DNA from: a virus
Length of the DNA: 28,367 bases
Virus record (IMG/VR): IMGVR_UViG_3300028008_000084
Coordinates: 1 to 28,367 of that record
Reading direction: 5' to 3' (one strand)
Shown: one piece after another, positions 2,801 to 22,581 of the stretch
How the letters are laid out: the number at the start of each line of letters is the position of its first letter
Numbering within the stretch: position 1 is the stretch's first letter
The notes under the pieces: model-generated
Database searches by the model: none
Told to the model about the DNA's origin: nothing
The model's input: only the letters and a program-made list of their open reading frames with translations
Translations under genes and position numbers: made by a program

Positions 2801-4921
2801 ATGGTAGAGATTAAAAAAACAGCCGCAGGTCAATCTATCCTCAATCGCAGGATTGGGGTGGTAAACACACAAACTGGCAAAGAGGACGCATATAAGGCGC
2901 AAGCCAATGCTTTCTTCCAGCTCAGCCAAAGTGGTATGCGTCTTGCATCGCAACTAGGGCAGGCAGAGGCCAAAGAATATGCCATGGGCGCACCTCTTGA
3001 AGCTCGTGATGAAAACGGAAACCTTTTGCCAGCAGAGCTTCCTGATGACATTTGGTTTGGTCGTGCTGGTCGCGCTGATGCAAAGCAAATCCTAGACCAA
3101 CGCTACATGGCAAAGTGGAGGGTTGATGCGGCAGAACAATTTAATAATTACGCAAAAAACAACCCTACTAATGCAGACGGGTTTAAGCAGTTTTCTGCAA
3201 GTTACCTAGCCCAGACTCAAGGCCTTCTGAAAGAACAAGGAGATGAAGCGCTTGCTAATATCGTTGGCGCTCAAGGTTACACGCTTGCGGGAGAGTATGC
3301 CTTAAAACTAGAAACCAATGCCGCCCAACTAGAGCAAGAGCAAGGCCTTGCTGATGCCAAAGCAAACTACGACATGATCACTAGCGACATGGCTCAAAGG
3401 TTTGCTAATGGTGAAATTAGTTTTGAGCAAGCTGGTTCCTTAATTGATGACATGGCAAGAGACGCCCAGGTCATTTTTGGTGCAACACCTAGATATGCTC
3501 AAGACCTAAAGTCTACAACTAGACGCGCTTTGTTTGAAAGAAAAATGGCAGTGTCTTTTAGGGGCAAGTCTGAAACAGAAATTAATACAGCTATTCTCGA
3601 CCTTGTTACCAATAACACAGACAGCAAGATTGCCCAGGAAGAGCCAGATCTGTTTGTGTCTTTCCAACAGATTCCAGAATCATCAAGGGATGGTGCTGAG
3701 TCTGAGATGAACTCTGTTCGCCAAATGGTAGCTAATGAACGTGCAGTAAATAAGGAAGCAATAGAATTTCAAAGCTATGTTGGCAATGGATTTTATGGGA
3801 CAGGCGATCAATCTGCAAAAGCATTTGCTCAACTTACTGGTACAGACACCAACAGTATTAGTTCCTTTTTGCAAGATTTTGACCGTGAATCATTAGGTGA
3901 TCCTGGTGTACAAAAGTTTATGCGACAGGCAAGTAGTATGCCGACATTTATCAAAAATGCTATCTCCCAACTATCAACAGGCATGATTGATGGTTTCCCA
4001 GGTGGGGTAAACGGTGCTTTGGTTGCGGTTGAGCTTGCTCAAAACTTTACAATTAACCCTGATGGGACAAGACATTATAAAAATTTGAGCACTGATGAAG
4101 CATTTTTCTTGAATGGTTTTACCAATCTTATTGAAAGGTATGGTGTTGGAAGAGCCGCAGAGTTACATCAGGATGCTAGAAAAATAGTAAAAAATGATGC
4201 TGAATGGCTTGGCATTATTCATGCCCAGACAGAGTATGAAGGCACAAGTGTTTATGAGGGTGCTAAACAATCTTTAATAAAACATAACCCAGGAATCAAT
4301 ATAGCTGACCTTGAGGATTTTGTTTACCCTTACGCAAAACAGCTTGCCATACCAGGAATGGATGCAGAAACTGCCGCCGAGACCGTTGCTCAAATCCATG
4401 AGCAAAGGCATTTACAGTATTTTGGTTCGTATTTATTACCTGGACGAGAAACTGTAGCGTACTCTCCTGCTTATTACTTCCGAGACAACTCAGCAACAAG
4501 GCCAGGATTTATTCAAGATATAGTTTCTCCAGATAAATTTCGTCATGGTAGGCTTGGTAAATTTAATAATTACGTTCAGGATACCGTTAGGTCTGTTATT
4601 AAACAATTACCAGGTGGAACTTTTGGCACAATGCCCAAAAATCCCGCATATGGAACAGACTTTTTTGTTAAGCCAAGTCCTAATAATACTTCCGACAAAG
4701 GTAGTTTTATGGTTGTTAATCACGAGGGGACAACAATCTTAGACATTAATGGTGCTCCAATTAATATCACCACAAAGGGCGTTGAAAAAATGTTTAAGAT
4801 GAAAACAAACCAAGCCCTGATTGCTGAAAACTTAGAGTATGATATAGAAGTGCAAAAAGCTAAGGTAGAGCGTGAAGAACTTCAGCGCAGTCTTCCTCAG
4901 TTTGTTTTTGGTCCGCGCTAG
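2801..4921 (+). CDS. Internal virion protein, T7 gp15-like
   Basis: This encodes 706 aa, close to T7 gp15 (747 aa). The ATG at 2801 follows AGGTG with a 5-nt gap. The protein is mostly charged and helical, with Gln/Ala-rich stretches (about residues 20-60 and 125-200) and no membrane segment. It lies between a gp14-like and a gp16-like gene, which is the invariant order of the T7 ejectosome. In T7, gp15 forms the periplasmic tunnel part of the channel. No enzyme motif was found. Identity is by synteny, size and composition rather than a residue signature. Confidence 0.6.
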   Translation: MVEIKKTAAGQSILNRRIGVVNTQTGKEDAYKAQANAFFQLSQSGMRLASQLGQAEAKEYAMGAPLEARDENGNLLPAELPDDIWFGRAGRADAKQILDQRYMAKWRVDAAEQFNNYAKNNPTNADGFKQFSASYLAQTQGLLKEQGDEALANIVGAQGYTLAGEYALKLETNAAQLEQEQGLADAKANYDMITSDMAQRFANGEISFEQAGSLIDDMARDAQVIFGATPRYAQDLKSTTRRALFERKMAVSFRGKSETEINTAILDLVTNNTDSKIAQEEPDLFVSFQQIPESSRDGAESEMNSVRQMVANERAVNKEAIEFQSYVGNGFYGTGDQSAKAFAQLTGTDTNSISSFLQDFDRESLGDPGVQKFMRQASSMPTFIKNAISQLSTGMIDGFPGGVNGALVAVELAQNFTINPDGTRHYKNLSTDEAFFLNGFTNLIERYGVGRAAELHQDARKIVKNDAEWLGIIHAQTEYEGTSVYEGAKQSLIKHNPGINIADLEDFVYPYAKQLAIPGMDAETAAETVAQIHEQRHLQYFGSYLLPGRETVAYSPAYYFRDNSATRPGFIQDIVSPDKFRHGRLGKFNNYVQDTVRSVIKQLPGGTFGTMPKNPAYGTDFFVKPSPNNTSDKGSFMVVNHEGTTILDINGAPINITTKGVEKMFKMKTNQALIAENLEYDIEVQKAKVEREELQRSLPQFVFGPR

Positions 4922-11259: not shown

Positions 11260-12032
11260 GTACTGCTCAGAAACTTCAGATGGCGGCGGCTGGCGTGGGT
11301 GAGGCAGGATTTAGTCCTGCCGACATTAACGACCTTCACTTATGGCTCGACGCTACTGACTCTTCGACCCTGTTCCAAGACACATCTAAGACCACTAGTG
11401 CGTCAGCAAACAACGATCCGATCGGTTGCTGGGCTGACAAGTCTGGCAATGGATTTGACCACGATCAAAGCACAAACGCTTACAGACCTTACTTGGACAC
11501 TGGCACAATGAGCCTCAATAGCCTTAGTCTTGATAAGACTTTGAATTCAAATTATGGACAGTGGTTAGAAAACTCTACTTGCACAAATACCATAACAGTA
11601 TTTCAGGTTGTACGGTTTCCAAATAGTTCCAACTGTGGAGTTAGTCTTGGTATGGGTGCAAGTGCAAATGCGTATGCTCACTTTTTTTCTGGTAGTAGTG
11701 GTGTTTCAGTCTACACATCTGCTCCTAACTACAGAACGATTAGTGGAACCTTTAGTCGCCTAAACTTGCAAGATGTTATTTATTCATGCGATATGGTTAA
11801 TTTTATCCGTCAGAATGGTGTGCAAAATGCGATCAATAATCCCTATAATTATCCAACGGGGAGTAGTACTCTTGTCGGTTCATACGTTGGACGTCGAGGT
11901 TTAACACCTACTAACCATGCGGCCTTCGACGGAAACATAGGGGAAATTATTGCCTATGATAGGCGACTATCATCAAGCGAAATTGGTCAGGTTGAAAGTT
12001 TTCTATCCGCAAAATGGAGTATCACAATATGA
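11256..12032 (+). CDS. LamG/concanavalin-like lectin domain tail protein
   Basis: This encodes 258 aa from ATG 11256, whose ATGA overlaps the stop of the fibre gene; the longer in-frame start at 11223 would overlap by 37 nt. The pattern LHLWLDATDSSTL, then CWADKSGNGFDHDQS, then a C-terminal GEIIAYDRRLSS-xE-xxxVESFLSAKW is typical of LamG-like jelly-roll domains in phage tail and adhesin proteins. These domains bind sugars or cell-surface glycans in other systems. No signal peptide is present. As a separate protein after the main fibre it probably forms a distal or accessory adhesin. Base composition differs slightly from the structural genes upstream, which would fit exchange of tip modules. 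Confidence 0.7.
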   Translation: MSTAQKLQMAAAGVGEAGFSPADINDLHLWLDATDSSTLFQDTSKTTSASANNDPIGCWADKSGNGFDHDQSTNAYRPYLDTGTMSLNSLSLDKTLNSNYGQWLENSTCTNTITVFQVVRFPNSSNCGVSLGMGASANAYAHFFSGSSGVSVYTSAPNYRTISGTFSRLNLQDVIYSCDMVNFIRQNGVQNAINNPYNYPTGSSTLVGSYVGRRGLTPTNHAAFDGNIGEIIAYDRRLSSSEIGQVESFLSAKWSITI

Positions 12033-12463
12033 TTTATGTAAAAGTAGTTAATGGTGAGGCGAGTGTCTTTCCTTACGATCTGCGCAAATTACGCGCTGAC
12101 AATCCAAACACATCCTTTCCAAAAGAAATAAGCACTGAAATGCTGGAGGAATATGGTGTCTTTGCAGTAGTAGAAAACAGACCTGAGTTTGATACTTATG
12201 TTCAGACGCTGTCTGCTGAAATGCCTGTTTTGCGCGACGGTCAATGGCAAGTTGATTACACCGTTCTCAATCTTCCAGAAGAAGATGCAAAAGAAATAAT
12301 CCGAAATGCTCGATTTGAGATGCTTTACGCAACTGACTGGCTTGCTTTGTCGGATGTAGTTATGTCGGAAGATATGGCTGTGTATCGCCAAGCCCTTCGT
12401 GATATTCCACAGCAAGAGGGCTTTCCATTTTCAGTAGTGTGGCCCACAAAACCAGAGGTTTAA
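12029..12463 (+). CDS. Tail fibre assembly/chaperone-like protein
   Basis: This encodes 144 aa from ATG 12029, overlapping the stop of the lectin gene as ATGA. The C-terminal half contains ARFEMLYATDWLALSD, then YRQALRDIPQQEGFPF and VVWPTKPEV. This R-x(4)-L-x(2)-TDW ... YRQ-LRDIP-Q ... FP ... WP-KP pattern recurs in short proteins next to phage tail fibres, many annotated as fibre assembly proteins or carrying the related conserved domain. Location between two tail-tip genes supports a helper or chaperone role. It could instead be a minor structural subunit. Confidence 0.6.
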   Translation: MIYVKVVNGEASVFPYDLRKLRADNPNTSFPKEISTEMLEEYGVFAVVENRPEFDTYVQTLSAEMPVLRDGQWQVDYTVLNLPEEDAKEIIRNARFEMLYATDWLALSDVVMSEDMAVYRQALRDIPQQEGFPFSVVWPTKPEV

Positions 12464-12466
12464 GGT

Positions 12467-13120
12467 ATGACTAAAACTAGAGATATTTCTAAAATCCTTC
12501 AGGGTGTTACGGTTGATGGCAATGTAGTTGCCGATCAATATATCGGTAATACTGTTACTGTTGGCACGGCTAACATTACTGGTACTGCAACTATGGATAC
12601 GGCTAATCCCGAGTTTATGCGGATTACTGGAAGCGATAATACTGGTTACGCTCAGTTTAGTTTTGGTTCATCCTCATCTCCAGCCACTACTGGGACGCAC
12701 ATGATTAATACTGCGGCTGGTTTGTTCCAAATCAAAACGGGCAATCCATCTCAAGCATCAGCCCAGAAGCAACTAGAAATTGATACTAGTGGCAATATGG
12801 ATGTGACTGGTGATCTTACAATGTCAGGTAATGACGTTCTTGCTGTCATAGCGGAGAGCCTGACAAGCAATGGTTATGTTACACTTAGCAATGGTTTGAA
12901 AGTTCAATGGGGTAGCTTGAACACTACATCGCAAACTGGAACGGTTACTTTCCCAGATGCTTTTACGTCTGCATGTTGGACTGTGCAGGTTACTTCTGAT
13001 TATGCAGTTGATAAGTTTGCCTCAACTGTCACATCAGTAAGCACCTCATCATTTAACTACAGGGTCGGCGGGGGCTATGTATCTGGGACAGATATTTATT
13101 GGCTCGCTATTGGAAACTAA
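12467..13120 (+). CDS. Receptor-binding/tail tip protein with gp53-like C-terminal domain
   Basis: This encodes 217 aa. The N-terminus is a beta-repeat with VTVGTANITGTATMDTAN, as in fibre shafts. The C-terminal ~85 residues (SNGYVTLSNGLKVQWG, TVTFPDAFTSACWTVQV, SSFNYRVGG, DIYWLAIGN) match the common gp53-like fibre-tip domain, which trimerises and usually carries host specificity. It starts 4 nt after the chaperone-like gene, with AAGGT ahead of the ATG. This is the last of the tail-tip cluster before the lysis-type membrane genes. Function as a receptor-binding tip is inferred from the domain. Confidence 0.7.
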   Translation: MTKTRDISKILQGVTVDGNVVADQYIGNTVTVGTANITGTATMDTANPEFMRITGSDNTGYAQFSFGSSSSPATTGTHMINTAAGLFQIKTGNPSQASAQKQLEIDTSGNMDVTGDLTMSGNDVLAVIAESLTSNGYVTLSNGLKVQWGSLNTTSQTGTVTFPDAFTSACWTVQVTSDYAVDKFASTVTSVSTSSFNYRVGGGYVSGTDIYWLAIGN

Positions 13121-14006: not shown

Positions 14007-15053
14007 ATGTCTGGAAAAGAAATACCAGAAGATATTCTGCTTTCATGCGTTGATATGTATTACAAGATTGGTAGCGAGCAAGGTGCGGCAAAGGCATTGA
14101 ACTTGTCCCGATCTACATATCGTCACCGATTGATGACTGCTCGCAAGAAAGGTCTTATGGACGAGGGTGTCGTTGAGACAGACACATACAAAAAGAACAT
14201 CCTCCCACCCAGCGACGAGCCGATCGAGGACATCATCGACCACCTGACAAGCAGGTACGAATCGCGCAAGTCACACGTCGATGCCAAGCAATGGCAACGA
14301 GTGACGATGAAGTCAGACGAACCAATCGGTCTTCTCTGGTTTGGCGACCCGCACCTTGATGACAACTTCTGCGACTGGCCTGTCTTGCGGAGCCACGTTG
14401 ACCTGGTAAAGAACAATGATGGCGTGTACGGTTGCGGTCTTGGTGACTACCAGAATAACTGGATTGGTCGCTTGTCTCGTTTGTATGCCGAACAAGATAC
14501 ATCTCATCACACCGCATGGCGGCTGGTTGAATGGTTTGTTCGTGAGATTAATCCCCTTATCCTTATTGGTGGCAACCACGATATGTGGTCTGGCCCAGGT
14601 GATCCACTACAGTGGATGACTGAGCCTCACACTATCAGCGAGGACTGGTCTGCACAAATTGCTATTGAGTTCCCCAATGGGCAAGAGTGTAAGATTCATG
14701 CGGCACACGACATGCCAGGGCACAGTCAATGGAACCCGTTGCATGGTCAGAAAAAGATGGCAATGTTCCGAAGCAACGCACACCTATACATTGCTGGCCA
14801 CAAGCACAACTGGGAACTAGCCCAGATGGAGCAAGTGGAAGAAGGTCATGTATCTTGGCTTGCCAGGGCGCGTGGTTACAAAGCGCATGATACCTATGCA
14901 ATGGTACGTGGGTATGAAGAACAGAACTTTGGTCAGGCTATCTTGCAAGTGATCAACCCGAAGACAAAGACTCCAGAAGGTTTCAGTCATTGTTTTGTTG
15001 ATGTTGAAACTGGCGTTGAGTTTCTCAACTACCTTCGTTCTTCCACAAAGTAG
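14007..15053 (+). CDS. HTH plus calcineurin-like metallophosphoesterase
   Basis: This encodes 348 aa. Residues ~10-50 look like a helix-turn-helix (YKIGSEQGAAKALNLSRSTY). The C-terminal ~240 residues carry a complete metallophosphoesterase motif set: GDPH (D114, H116), GDY (D147), GNHD (N190, H191, D192), an IHAAHD segment near residue 230 and GHKHN (H265, H267). These ligate two metal ions and hydrolyse phosphomonoesters or diesters. Similar HTH-MPE proteins occur in many phages, where they may act on DNA ends or nucleotides. The ribosome site is TAGGAG. The 3' end overlaps the convergent gene on the other strand by 29 bp. Substrate is unknown. Confidence 0.85.
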   Translation: MSGKEIPEDILLSCVDMYYKIGSEQGAAKALNLSRSTYRHRLMTARKKGLMDEGVVETDTYKKNILPPSDEPIEDIIDHLTSRYESRKSHVDAKQWQRVTMKSDEPIGLLWFGDPHLDDNFCDWPVLRSHVDLVKNNDGVYGCGLGDYQNNWIGRLSRLYAEQDTSHHTAWRLVEWFVREINPLILIGGNHDMWSGPGDPLQWMTEPHTISEDWSAQIAIEFPNGQECKIHAAHDMPGHSQWNPLHGQKKMAMFRSNAHLYIAGHKHNWELAQMEQVEEGHVSWLARARGYKAHDTYAMVRGYEEQNFGQAILQVINPKTKTPEGFSHCFVDVETGVEFLNYLRSSTK

Positions 15054-21430: not shown

Positions 21431-21793
21431 CTATTTGGCTTTAGGTTGGTATGCTTCTTGCGAAGGAAGTTTGAAGGCCGTGTGGACCTCGATGGAGGCT
21501 TCGAGTTCTGCACGCAACTCTGTTGCTTGCTGTTGCGCTCGCTCTAAGCGTTGCTCAAGGCGCATCAGCTTGATGCTTTCAGTGCCTGTTCGCATGTCTT
21601 CAGTAGCTTCATCGAGTTCAGCTACCATGTCGGCGACTTGTTTAAGTACCCAAGTCAGCGCGTTATCTGCTGTGTAGCAGTGACCGCGAGCAATCTGCGA
21701 GCGTGTAAAATCATCACTAAACATACTTAGGTAATTAATTTTAGATTCAACAAGGGTGTTGTTCAAGGTTACTTTGGTTTGAGATTTAGACAT
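21431..21793 (-). CDS. Coiled-coil hypothetical protein, first gene of the leftward transcript
   Basis: This encodes 120 aa from ATG 21793 with AAGGAG upstream. A Thr/Asn-rich N-terminus (KVTLNNTLVESKINYL) precedes a long Glu/Arg/Gln helix (ADMVAELDEATEDM through RLEQRLERAQQQ), likely a coiled coil. No membrane segment or enzyme motif is visible. Its leader and first ~15 codons are duplicated in mirror image at 21909-22041, so the flanking control DNA was copied together with the gene start. It is followed by its own terminator, which suggests separate control, as for an early regulator. Function unknown. Confidence 0.65.
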   Translation of the reverse strand: MSKSQTKVTLNNTLVESKINYLSMFSDDFTRSQIARGHCYTADNALTWVLKQVADMVAELDEATEDMRTGTESIKLMRLEQRLERAQQQATELRAELEASIEVHTAFKLPSQEAYQPKAK

Positions 21794-21893
21794 AGTTCTA
21801 CTCCTTAGATGTGGTTGGGACTATCCCAACCTTACAGCCCCAACATAAACCGCCCAGCGACATAGGGTCTAGCGACAGCGACCCCCAACACGG
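21754..21893 (-). repeat. Left arm of the inverted duplication
   Basis: Read leftward, this arm covers the 5' leader, ribosome site (AAGGAGTAG) and first codons of the coiled-coil gene. It aligns with 21909-22041 read rightward over ~130 bp with gaps. Shared words include TAGACC, GGGCGG, TATGTT, GGGG, CTGT, GGTTGG, AGGAGTAG, CTAAATC, AAGTAACCTTGA and CAACACCC. It also contains a perfect 7-bp hairpin GGTTGGG/CCCAACC at 21813-21831. Confidence 0.8.
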
Positions 21894-21908
21894 TCGGGCG
21901 AAGCCCGA
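21894..21908. other. Apical hairpin at the centre of the inverted duplication
   Basis: TCGGGC and GCCCGA are perfect complements separated by GAA. The symmetry axis of the two ~130-bp arms falls exactly here, so a transcript or an extruded cruciform would be closed by this triloop. Confidence 0.7.
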
Positions 21909-22041
21909 GTGGTGCGGGCGGGGGGTAGACCATATGGCGAGGGGCGGTATGTTAGGGGACTGTTGGTTGGTGGTAGTCACTAGCACTTCTTAGGAGTAGT
22001 GACGCAACTAAATCGGGCCGAAGTAACCTTGAGCAACACCC
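21909..22041 (+). repeat. Right arm of the inverted duplication, with a degenerate gene start
   Basis: This arm mirrors the leader of the leftward coiled-coil gene but reads rightward. It keeps the ribosome-site word TAGGAGTAG at 21991-21998 while the ATG is lost (GTGACG in its place). The following frame from GTG 21999 still spells VTLSNT where the coiled-coil protein has VTLNNT. The frame stays open to TAA 22137-22139 (46 codons), but nothing later in it resembles the left protein, so it is more likely a remnant than a gene. Confidence 0.7.
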
Positions 22042-22053
22042 GCTATCTAGCTG

Positions 22054-22103
22054 TTAGACTGCCCTTTAGACTGTTGCATGTTTTACGCAATAGACTGTTG
22101 CAT
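22054..22103 (+). repeat. Three TAGACTG direct repeats upstream of the TerS-like gene
   Basis: TAGACTG occurs at 22055, 22067 and 22091. The last two copies extend to TAGACTGTTGCAT. Spacings are 12 and 24 bp, so they lie on a similar face of the helix. The block lies between the right arm and the TerS-like gene. This resembles an operator or iteron array for a phage or host protein. The stretch 21794-22203 holds no convincing protein gene. Confidence 0.55.
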
Positions 22104-22140
22104 AATTGCCACTTGATTTTACTTGACGAACCCTCTTAAA

Positions 22141-22167
22141 CTCCGCTTAAGGAGCTTCTTCAGAAGC
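22141..22167 (+). other. Nested short hairpins in the TerS-like gene leader
   Basis: CTCC (22141-22144) can pair with GGAG (22151-22154), and directly after it GCTTCT (22154-22159) pairs with AGAAGC (22162-22167). Both lie in the leader of the TerS-like gene, whose ribosome site is GAGG near 22194. A mild effect on message stability or translation is possible. Confidence 0.3.
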
Positions 22168-22203
22168 GAGTTATAGGATTATGTGTTAGCATCGAGGTAT
22201 AGA

Positions 22204-22581
22204 ATGGGCGACTTGACGGAGCGTAAATTGACGAGCAAGCAGGAGGCACTGGTTGAGCACCTCGTAGCAAATGGTGGAACGATAAAAGATGCCAGTCAAG
22301 TCGCTGGATATGCAGAGGGTGAGAGTGGAAGAGTAAGTGCTTCCAAGGCTTTAGCACTACCACACGTCCAAGCGTATATGATGCAGAGGATAAGGGATGA
22401 ATTGGGAACTCGTGCAACGCTGGCCCTATCCACGGTGACGAGTCTAGCGAGGACAGCAAAGAGTGAGTATGTGCAGTTGGAAGCGTCGAAAGACCTGCTC
22501 GACAGAGCAGGGCTGAAGGCGCCTGACAAGCACATGCATCTACATGCTGGAGACATCAAGGTAGAGATTGACCTGGGCTAA
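22204..22581 (+). CDS. TerS-like (terminase small subunit) HTH protein
   Basis: This encodes 125 aa from ATG 22204, with GAGG 7 nt upstream; the upstream GTG at 22183 has no ribosome site. LTSKQEALVEHLVANGGTIK, then DASQVAGYAEGESGRVSASK and a helical SEYVQLEASKDLLDRAGLKAPD is the layout of phage small terminase subunits: N-terminal HTH that binds the packaging site, then an oligomerisation helix. Nearly 2.7 kb separates it from TerL, which is unusual, but the two are on the same strand and region. A general HTH regulator is the main alternative. Confidence 0.58.
   Translation: MGDLTERKLTSKQEALVEHLVANGGTIKDASQVAGYAEGESGRVSASKALALPHVQAYMMQRIRDELGTRATLALSTVTSLARTAKSEYVQLEASKDLLDRAGLKAPDKHMHLHAGDIKVEIDLG

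Follow-up and report, generated by a model that had tools for sequence, protein, structure and literature searches.

A long imperfect palindrome mirroring the start of a divergent gene recurs beside the terminase small-subunit gene of a large group of mostly marine phages

Introduction

The single-strand origins of rolling-circle plasmids are large, imperfect, noncoding hairpins that are read on one strand. The phage palindrome described here resembles them in being a large imperfect hairpin and in its single-strand reading, but the ORFs scanned included no rolling-circle initiator, it reaches 1.37 kb and it overlaps a gene. A second precedent comes from nematodes, in which inverted repeats are conserved in arrangement more than in sequence and active maintenance has been inferred (Zhao et al. 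2007, PMC1803023). In the phages, too, the inverted-repeat arrangement outlasts the sequence. However, the nematode repeats are nearly perfect, consist of homologous gene pairs plus intergenic DNA and belong to animals, whereas the phage palindrome has a noncoding mirror, arms that are only ~80% alike and rich in indels, and a single locus. Obelisks (PMC11922315) offer an analogy only: they are likewise ~1 kb in size, rod-like, self-paired and equipped with a protein gene, but the palindrome lies within a DNA phage genome, carries its gene on the strand opposite the favored fold and gives no sign of RNA replication. Finally, fold-back inverted duplication at palindromes (PMC3315005) is a plausible origin of the mirror copy, but does not account for how the arms later covaried, each with its partner, while indels persisted. 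Literature searches on pelagiphage palindromes and long phage hairpins, with subscription journals mostly outside their scope, returned nothing relevant; so far as these searches reach, maintained inverted repeats have not been described in phages or with a noncoding mirror of one gene.

A gene start duplicated in inverted orientation

The window, meaning the whole 28,367-bp IMG/VR virus record that was analyzed, contains a 288-bp imperfect palindrome at positions 21754–22041. Its parts and the gene that it overlaps are as follows.

21431–21793, minus strand: gene X (120 aa), which opens the leftward operon
21754–21893, plus strand: left arm, antisense to X from its leader through the ribosome site to codon 13
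21798–21805, minus strand: ribosome-binding site of X (AGGAGTAG)
21813–21831, minus strand: X leader hairpin, GGTTGGGA-TAG-TCCCAACC
21894–21908, no strand assigned: apical hairpin, TCGGGC-GAA-GCCCGA
21909–22041, plus strand: right arm, a noncoding mirror copy of the left arm
21992–21999, plus strand: mirrored AGGAGTAG in the right arm

A preliminary description of this DNA had proposed that the start of gene X is duplicated here in inverted orientation, and the duplication proved to be far beyond chance. The reverse complement of 21754–21900 aligned with 21903–22041 over its full length with a local score of 107, compared with 19 ± 3 and a maximum of 31 in 1000 dinucleotide shuffles; the core, trimmed of its hairpin and outermost 24 nt, still scored 72 against a null maximum of 37. 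The window arms are 77% identical over aligned positions, a scan of the whole window found no second palindrome as strong, and all 288 bp recur identically in contig L003. The triloop hairpin was likewise found exactly where it had been described, and the mirror copy does retain AGGAGTAG but lacks an ATG where the mirrored one would lie. At 21999 a GTG is in frame with the VTLSNT reading, yet it lies just 2 nt past AGGAG. The left arm includes 40 nt of the X coding start. As judged from the sequence, the X leader hairpin is mostly lost from the right-arm copy. What the preliminary description missed was the locus-specific recurrence of the palindrome in a large phage group, the mirroring of the whole gene and the covariation of the arms, to which we turn below.

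The protein encoded by X is predicted with a mean pLDDT of 90 to form a helical bundle (helices 10–22, 28–66 and 72–107). It had no match in Pfam, PHROG or NCBIfam, and a structure search gave no informative PDB match and viral matches that are uncharacterised. Among relatives, BLAST sorts X into three families, to which that of Hodr (the phage isolate introduced below) is added, and a faint common C-terminal motif, judged by eye, suggests that these families may form one superfamily. In most relatives a short stem-loop of differing sequence lies just upstream of the X ribosome-binding site. Synonymous constraint over X codons 1 to 22–29 was strong within clades and faded between them; we set it aside because module exchange accounts for it equally well.

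Recurrence at one locus

A TerS-based scan gave 80 contigs and, with the window and Hodr counted, 74 loci with enough upstream sequence. Self-complementary scores of at least 60 occurred upstream of TerS at 30 of the 74 loci but in 0 of 502 background stretches of 900 bp from the same contigs. The palindromes, 276–1240 bp long across IMG/VR contigs, sit between the divergent gene X and TerS, with the X start within the left arm. All of X is mirrored in L054, L069, L077 and L087–L099, as is most of it in L010 (885 bp) judging from coordinates; the mirror copies examined contain no long ORF. The left edge is fixed within each clade, falling 66–67 nt into X in the B group, 86–87 nt in the A group and 481–482 nt in the C-long group.

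The isolate Pelagibacter phage EXVC031P Hodr (L086) carries a 612-bp palindrome (11984–12595) that overlaps the starts of both the divergent gene and TerS. The locus tags of its record, OQ414635, say EXVC032PBaldr. Palindromes of 1372 and 1357 bp were found in two metagenome-assembled genome (MAG) contigs, L130 and L131 (TerS 57% identical). Their phage loci, both of this group, are very similar, yet one contig is binned to a Rhodobiaceae MAG and the other to a Euryarchaeota MAG, and at least one of them is therefore probably mis-binned. In L132, a Caldovatus aquaticus genome with a TerS relative (40%), the palindrome is weak and doubtful (score 102 against a local background of 69), and L129 and L133 have none upstream of TerS. 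Across a large group of mostly marine phages, one of which infects SAR11, the palindrome thus recurs at the same locus. Relatives that keep the gene without a mirrored copy or arm pairing had been named as the finding that would count against the proposed duplication; the comparison was run, and its outcome favors the proposal.

Inverted chimeras occur in amplified metagenomes. Nevertheless, a chimera of assembly or amplification is so improbable here as to be practically negligible: many contigs have a palindrome at the same position, L003 is identical to the window, the isolate has a palindrome of its own, and the arms have diverged and covary. An assembly artifact was rejected on the number of contigs, the isolate and the diverged arms.

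The two arms change together

The clearest view of arm evolution came from L054 and L069. Within each of these phages the left and right arms are 80–81% identical, compared with 66% for left against left, 67% for right against right and 65% for left against right between them. Site patterns were own|own at 116 positions, shared by arm at 8 and crossed at 2. The two phages have arm-specific indels in common, several of them flanked on both sides by covarying sites 2–11 nt away. Because these indels are common to diverged phages and lie amid covarying sites, the palindrome must be older than their split, and the arms must have been re-matched base by base or via very short tracts. One old duplication in neutral decay was accordingly rejected, own|own patterns far exceeding crossed ones though the indels are shared.

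Double substitutions told the same way in larger samples. Across 12 disjoint phage pairs, those keeping and those breaking a pair numbered 54:7, where slid controls keep 1–10; 45 of the 54 came from the single diverged pair L098 and L094. The corresponding ratio was 224:46 in the C-long group (slid controls keep 12–37; counted over related sequences) and 35:10 between L130 and L131 (slid controls keep 0–8). The last pair showed 24 own|own, 70 by-arm and 3 crossed patterns, with 29 common indel events. In several groups, by a rough comparison, between-arm substitutions fell below the number predicted from indels and between-phage ratios, and the Hodr arms differ by 36 gap openings and 16 substitutions. 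Compensatory changes therefore exceed slid controls, as in conserved paired structures, and provide strong evidence that base pairing of the arms is maintained. The self-paired structure that the preliminary description had listed among its options is likely.

We also considered whether bulges are evenly spaced through selection against long helices. Spacing looked suggestive against random placement; against realigned simulations only the longest run was low (11.75 vs. 13.67 ± 0.86) and the spacing variance was not significant, and the idea was rejected.

Profiles between relatives show that X bodies, centers and outer arms have been exchanged. The window shares its apex (21881–21926) at 95.7% identity with L055, in which X belongs to another family. 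In L078 (1381–2225), the left arm and center of L111 (437 nt identical) are fused to an L072-type outer right arm, and the outer arms are unmatched for that reason; other contigs with an L111-type X (L110, L111, L113, L114 and L117) retain the arm match. L078 shows that recombination is able to break the match.

These data bear on the reading in which a fold-back inverted duplication is simply re-matched by template switching or arm conversion and has little or no function. Both ingredients have precedents, in the fold-back inverted duplications known at palindromes (PMC3315005) and in the active maintenance inferred for nematode repeats (PMC1803023), and the transition-to-transversion mix of compensated changes equals that of single changes. 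However, conversion tracts should erase indels, whereas shared indels persist a few nucleotides from covarying sites; the outer arms of L078 remain unmatched; the left edge is constant per clade; and single G.U changes in the constrained left arm are strand biased (see below). We consider mutational upkeep rather unlikely.

A proposed single-stranded form, most likely of the TerS strand

If the arms pair within a nucleic acid strand, mismatches may reveal which one. On the TerS strand, arm mismatches in 21 phages comprised 246 of G.U type and 49 of A.C type. The right arm is skewed toward G over C, which accounts for much of this bias; in a log-linear fit with separate arm compositions, the G.U effect was +0.32 ± 0.08 and the A.C effect −0.16 ± 0.14. 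Among single transitions between close relatives, those that kept the plus-strand RNA pair outnumbered those that lost it in both arms: 21:6 on the left (p 0.006), where there is little GC skew, and 28:9 on the right (p 0.003). All 28 palindromes of this set folded more stably on the TerS strand, with 71–84% of bases paired and a margin of just 1 kcal/mol in Hodr. The plus-strand fold was also the more stable in L130, L131 and L132, the two strands being almost equal in L130 and L131.

Three lineages gave no strand bias of G.U over A.C: Hodr (3 vs. 4), L130 (8 vs. 12) and L131 (9 vs. 9). Because of these lineages and the G skew of the right arm, we scaled back the raw G.U count as proof of RNA. 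Compensated pairs comprised 25 transitions and 29 transversions, so transitions are not enriched, unlike the prediction for stepwise change via G.U. Taken together, the evidence that the relevant form of the palindrome is a single strand is moderate, and the best single guess is that it acts as TerS-strand RNA. A search of Rfam 15 with the window and seven relatives gave no match above the gathering score.

The TerS side and the genome context

To the right of the palindrome lie two further features.

22096–22145, plus strand: conserved promoter-like stretch in the gap between palindrome and TerS, TTGATT-18-TAAACT plus TTGACGAACCCTCTTAAACTCCG
22204–22581, plus strand: terminase small subunit (TerS) gene, ATG start with GAGG upstream

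The listed TerS ORF starts at a GTG at 22183. The stretch 22096–22145 is 86–94% kept in several relatives whose TerS is 75–84% identical (e.g., L008, L009, L013, L017 and L018); most other relatives have TTGACA and then a G-rich tract at this position (GGGGGGGAACACAAGGGGGGG in the B group). An exact 13-nt direct repeat, TAGACTGTTGCAT, lies between palindrome and TerS at 22067–22079 and 22091–22103.

The structural genes of the window are of podovirus type, and the rightward late genes begin with TerS. The leftward genes include RecE-like and other exonuclease matches, an SSB-like match, a RusA-like or PDDEXK resolvase match and ArdC. The ORF at 14007–15053 matches PHROG 7339, "DNA repair exonuclease," and no Pfam or NCBIfam family; judging by this match, such a phage nuclease could affect how stable the palindrome is. 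The ORFs scanned yielded no DNA polymerase, helicase or primase. The same ORFs included no rolling-circle Rep; several are matchless, and the record may be incomplete. All window ORFs longer than 400 aa have tail, virion or TerL matches, except 2801–4921, which has no PHROG match. Nor was a protelomerase gene found in the window ORFs, with the same proviso that the record may be incomplete, and the palindromes, whose arms are 72–87% identical with many indels, differ from the near-perfect short central palindrome of an N15-type protelomerase site.

A rival reading is a DNA element. The hairpin would then form while phage DNA is single-stranded, or as a partial cruciform, and would act beside terS as a site for replication initiation or packaging; X might be the protein that works with it. 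The palindrome adjoins terS; GC skew rises here, although divergent transcription could produce the rise; polymerase, helicase and primase are missing from the scanned ORFs while exonuclease, SSB and resolvase matches are present; and covariation with no G.U bias in L130 and L131 fits a DNA structure. Set against this are the one-strand G.U preference of the main clade, since a cruciform would treat both strands alike, and the mirroring of an entire gene, for which such a site has no evident need. Full cruciform extrusion is unlikely because the arms are only ~80% alike with many indels, whose bulges would make extrusion poor. We regard a DNA element as a serious alternative, but an unlikely one, with the cruciform version among the weaker readings.

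Promoter signals

A two-way promoter had also been suggested, on the grounds that both arms keep TAGACC followed by TATGTT. The motifs are indeed present in each arm, at spacings of 16 and 18, but in the window they are no better than in shuffled sequence (z 0.2 and 0.9), which leaves the suggestion weak. Across the group, sigma70 −35/−10 pairs in the two arms were not above chance either (mean z −0.31 and 0.84). A conserved promoter-like motif does lie to the right of the palindrome, or within the right arm in Hodr. The right arm of Hodr contains a strong TTGACA-17-TATACT. Left of the left arm, no consistent sigma70-like promoter was detected (mean z −0.26). The promoter-pair reading is further weakened because it leaves whole-gene mirroring unaccounted for.

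A related proposal treats the right arm as a second X control region, either a duplicated promoter or leader that drives or tunes rightward transcription or a decoy that mimics X mRNA for a common regulator. Ribosome-site and leader-like motifs are kept in the right arm, and a rightward RNA begun near the center would look like the 5′ part of X mRNA. But the window arms carry no promoter signal above shuffles, the X leader hairpin is largely gone from the copy, and mirroring of the whole gene is again unexplained, which together make this proposal improbable.

Discussion

This stretch very probably owes its importance to the folding of an RNA or DNA strand and not to coding for protein. Our leading explanation, held tentatively and at a little under even chances, is a long imperfect hairpin whose pairing is under selection and which acts single-stranded, most likely as RNA transcribed toward TerS. 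In its favor we counted recurrence at the locus, the match of each arm to its own partner, covariation, strand-biased G.U changes and fold stability. Against it we counted the lack of a consistent sigma70-like promoter left of the left arm, the three lineages without G.U bias (Hodr, L130 and L131), compensated pairs without an excess of transitions, and an abundance of indels that selection for stability alone does not favor.

In such a mechanism, the TerS strand would be transcribed through the left arm to give a rod-shaped RNA. Its left half would be antisense to the X leader, ribosome site and first codons, and its right half would be an imperfect mimic of the same part of X mRNA. The RNA could silence X, the first gene of the leftward operon, by covering the ribosome site when rightward transcription dominates. 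The mimic arm might keep the antisense half folded and tunable, with mimic and bulges setting the ease of opening, and the bulges would limit RNase III cutting. More speculatively, and still short of probable, the palindromes may represent a new class of phage hairpin RNA, 0.3 to 1.4 kb long, in which a gene is joined to a permanently noncoding mirror and X is turned off as the packaging operon starts.

In bacteria, a long inverted repeat is as a rule unstable; mostly marine phages nonetheless keep this palindrome at a fixed place and re-match its arms as the gene evolves. Because the isolate Hodr exists, the RNA, DNA and correction readings can be separated at the bench. If the palindrome acts as RNA, it would add a new type of large phage RNA and a new form of early–late control; if it acts as DNA, it would mark a novel type of origin or packaging site; and if neither, it would be a natural record of arm-to-arm correction.
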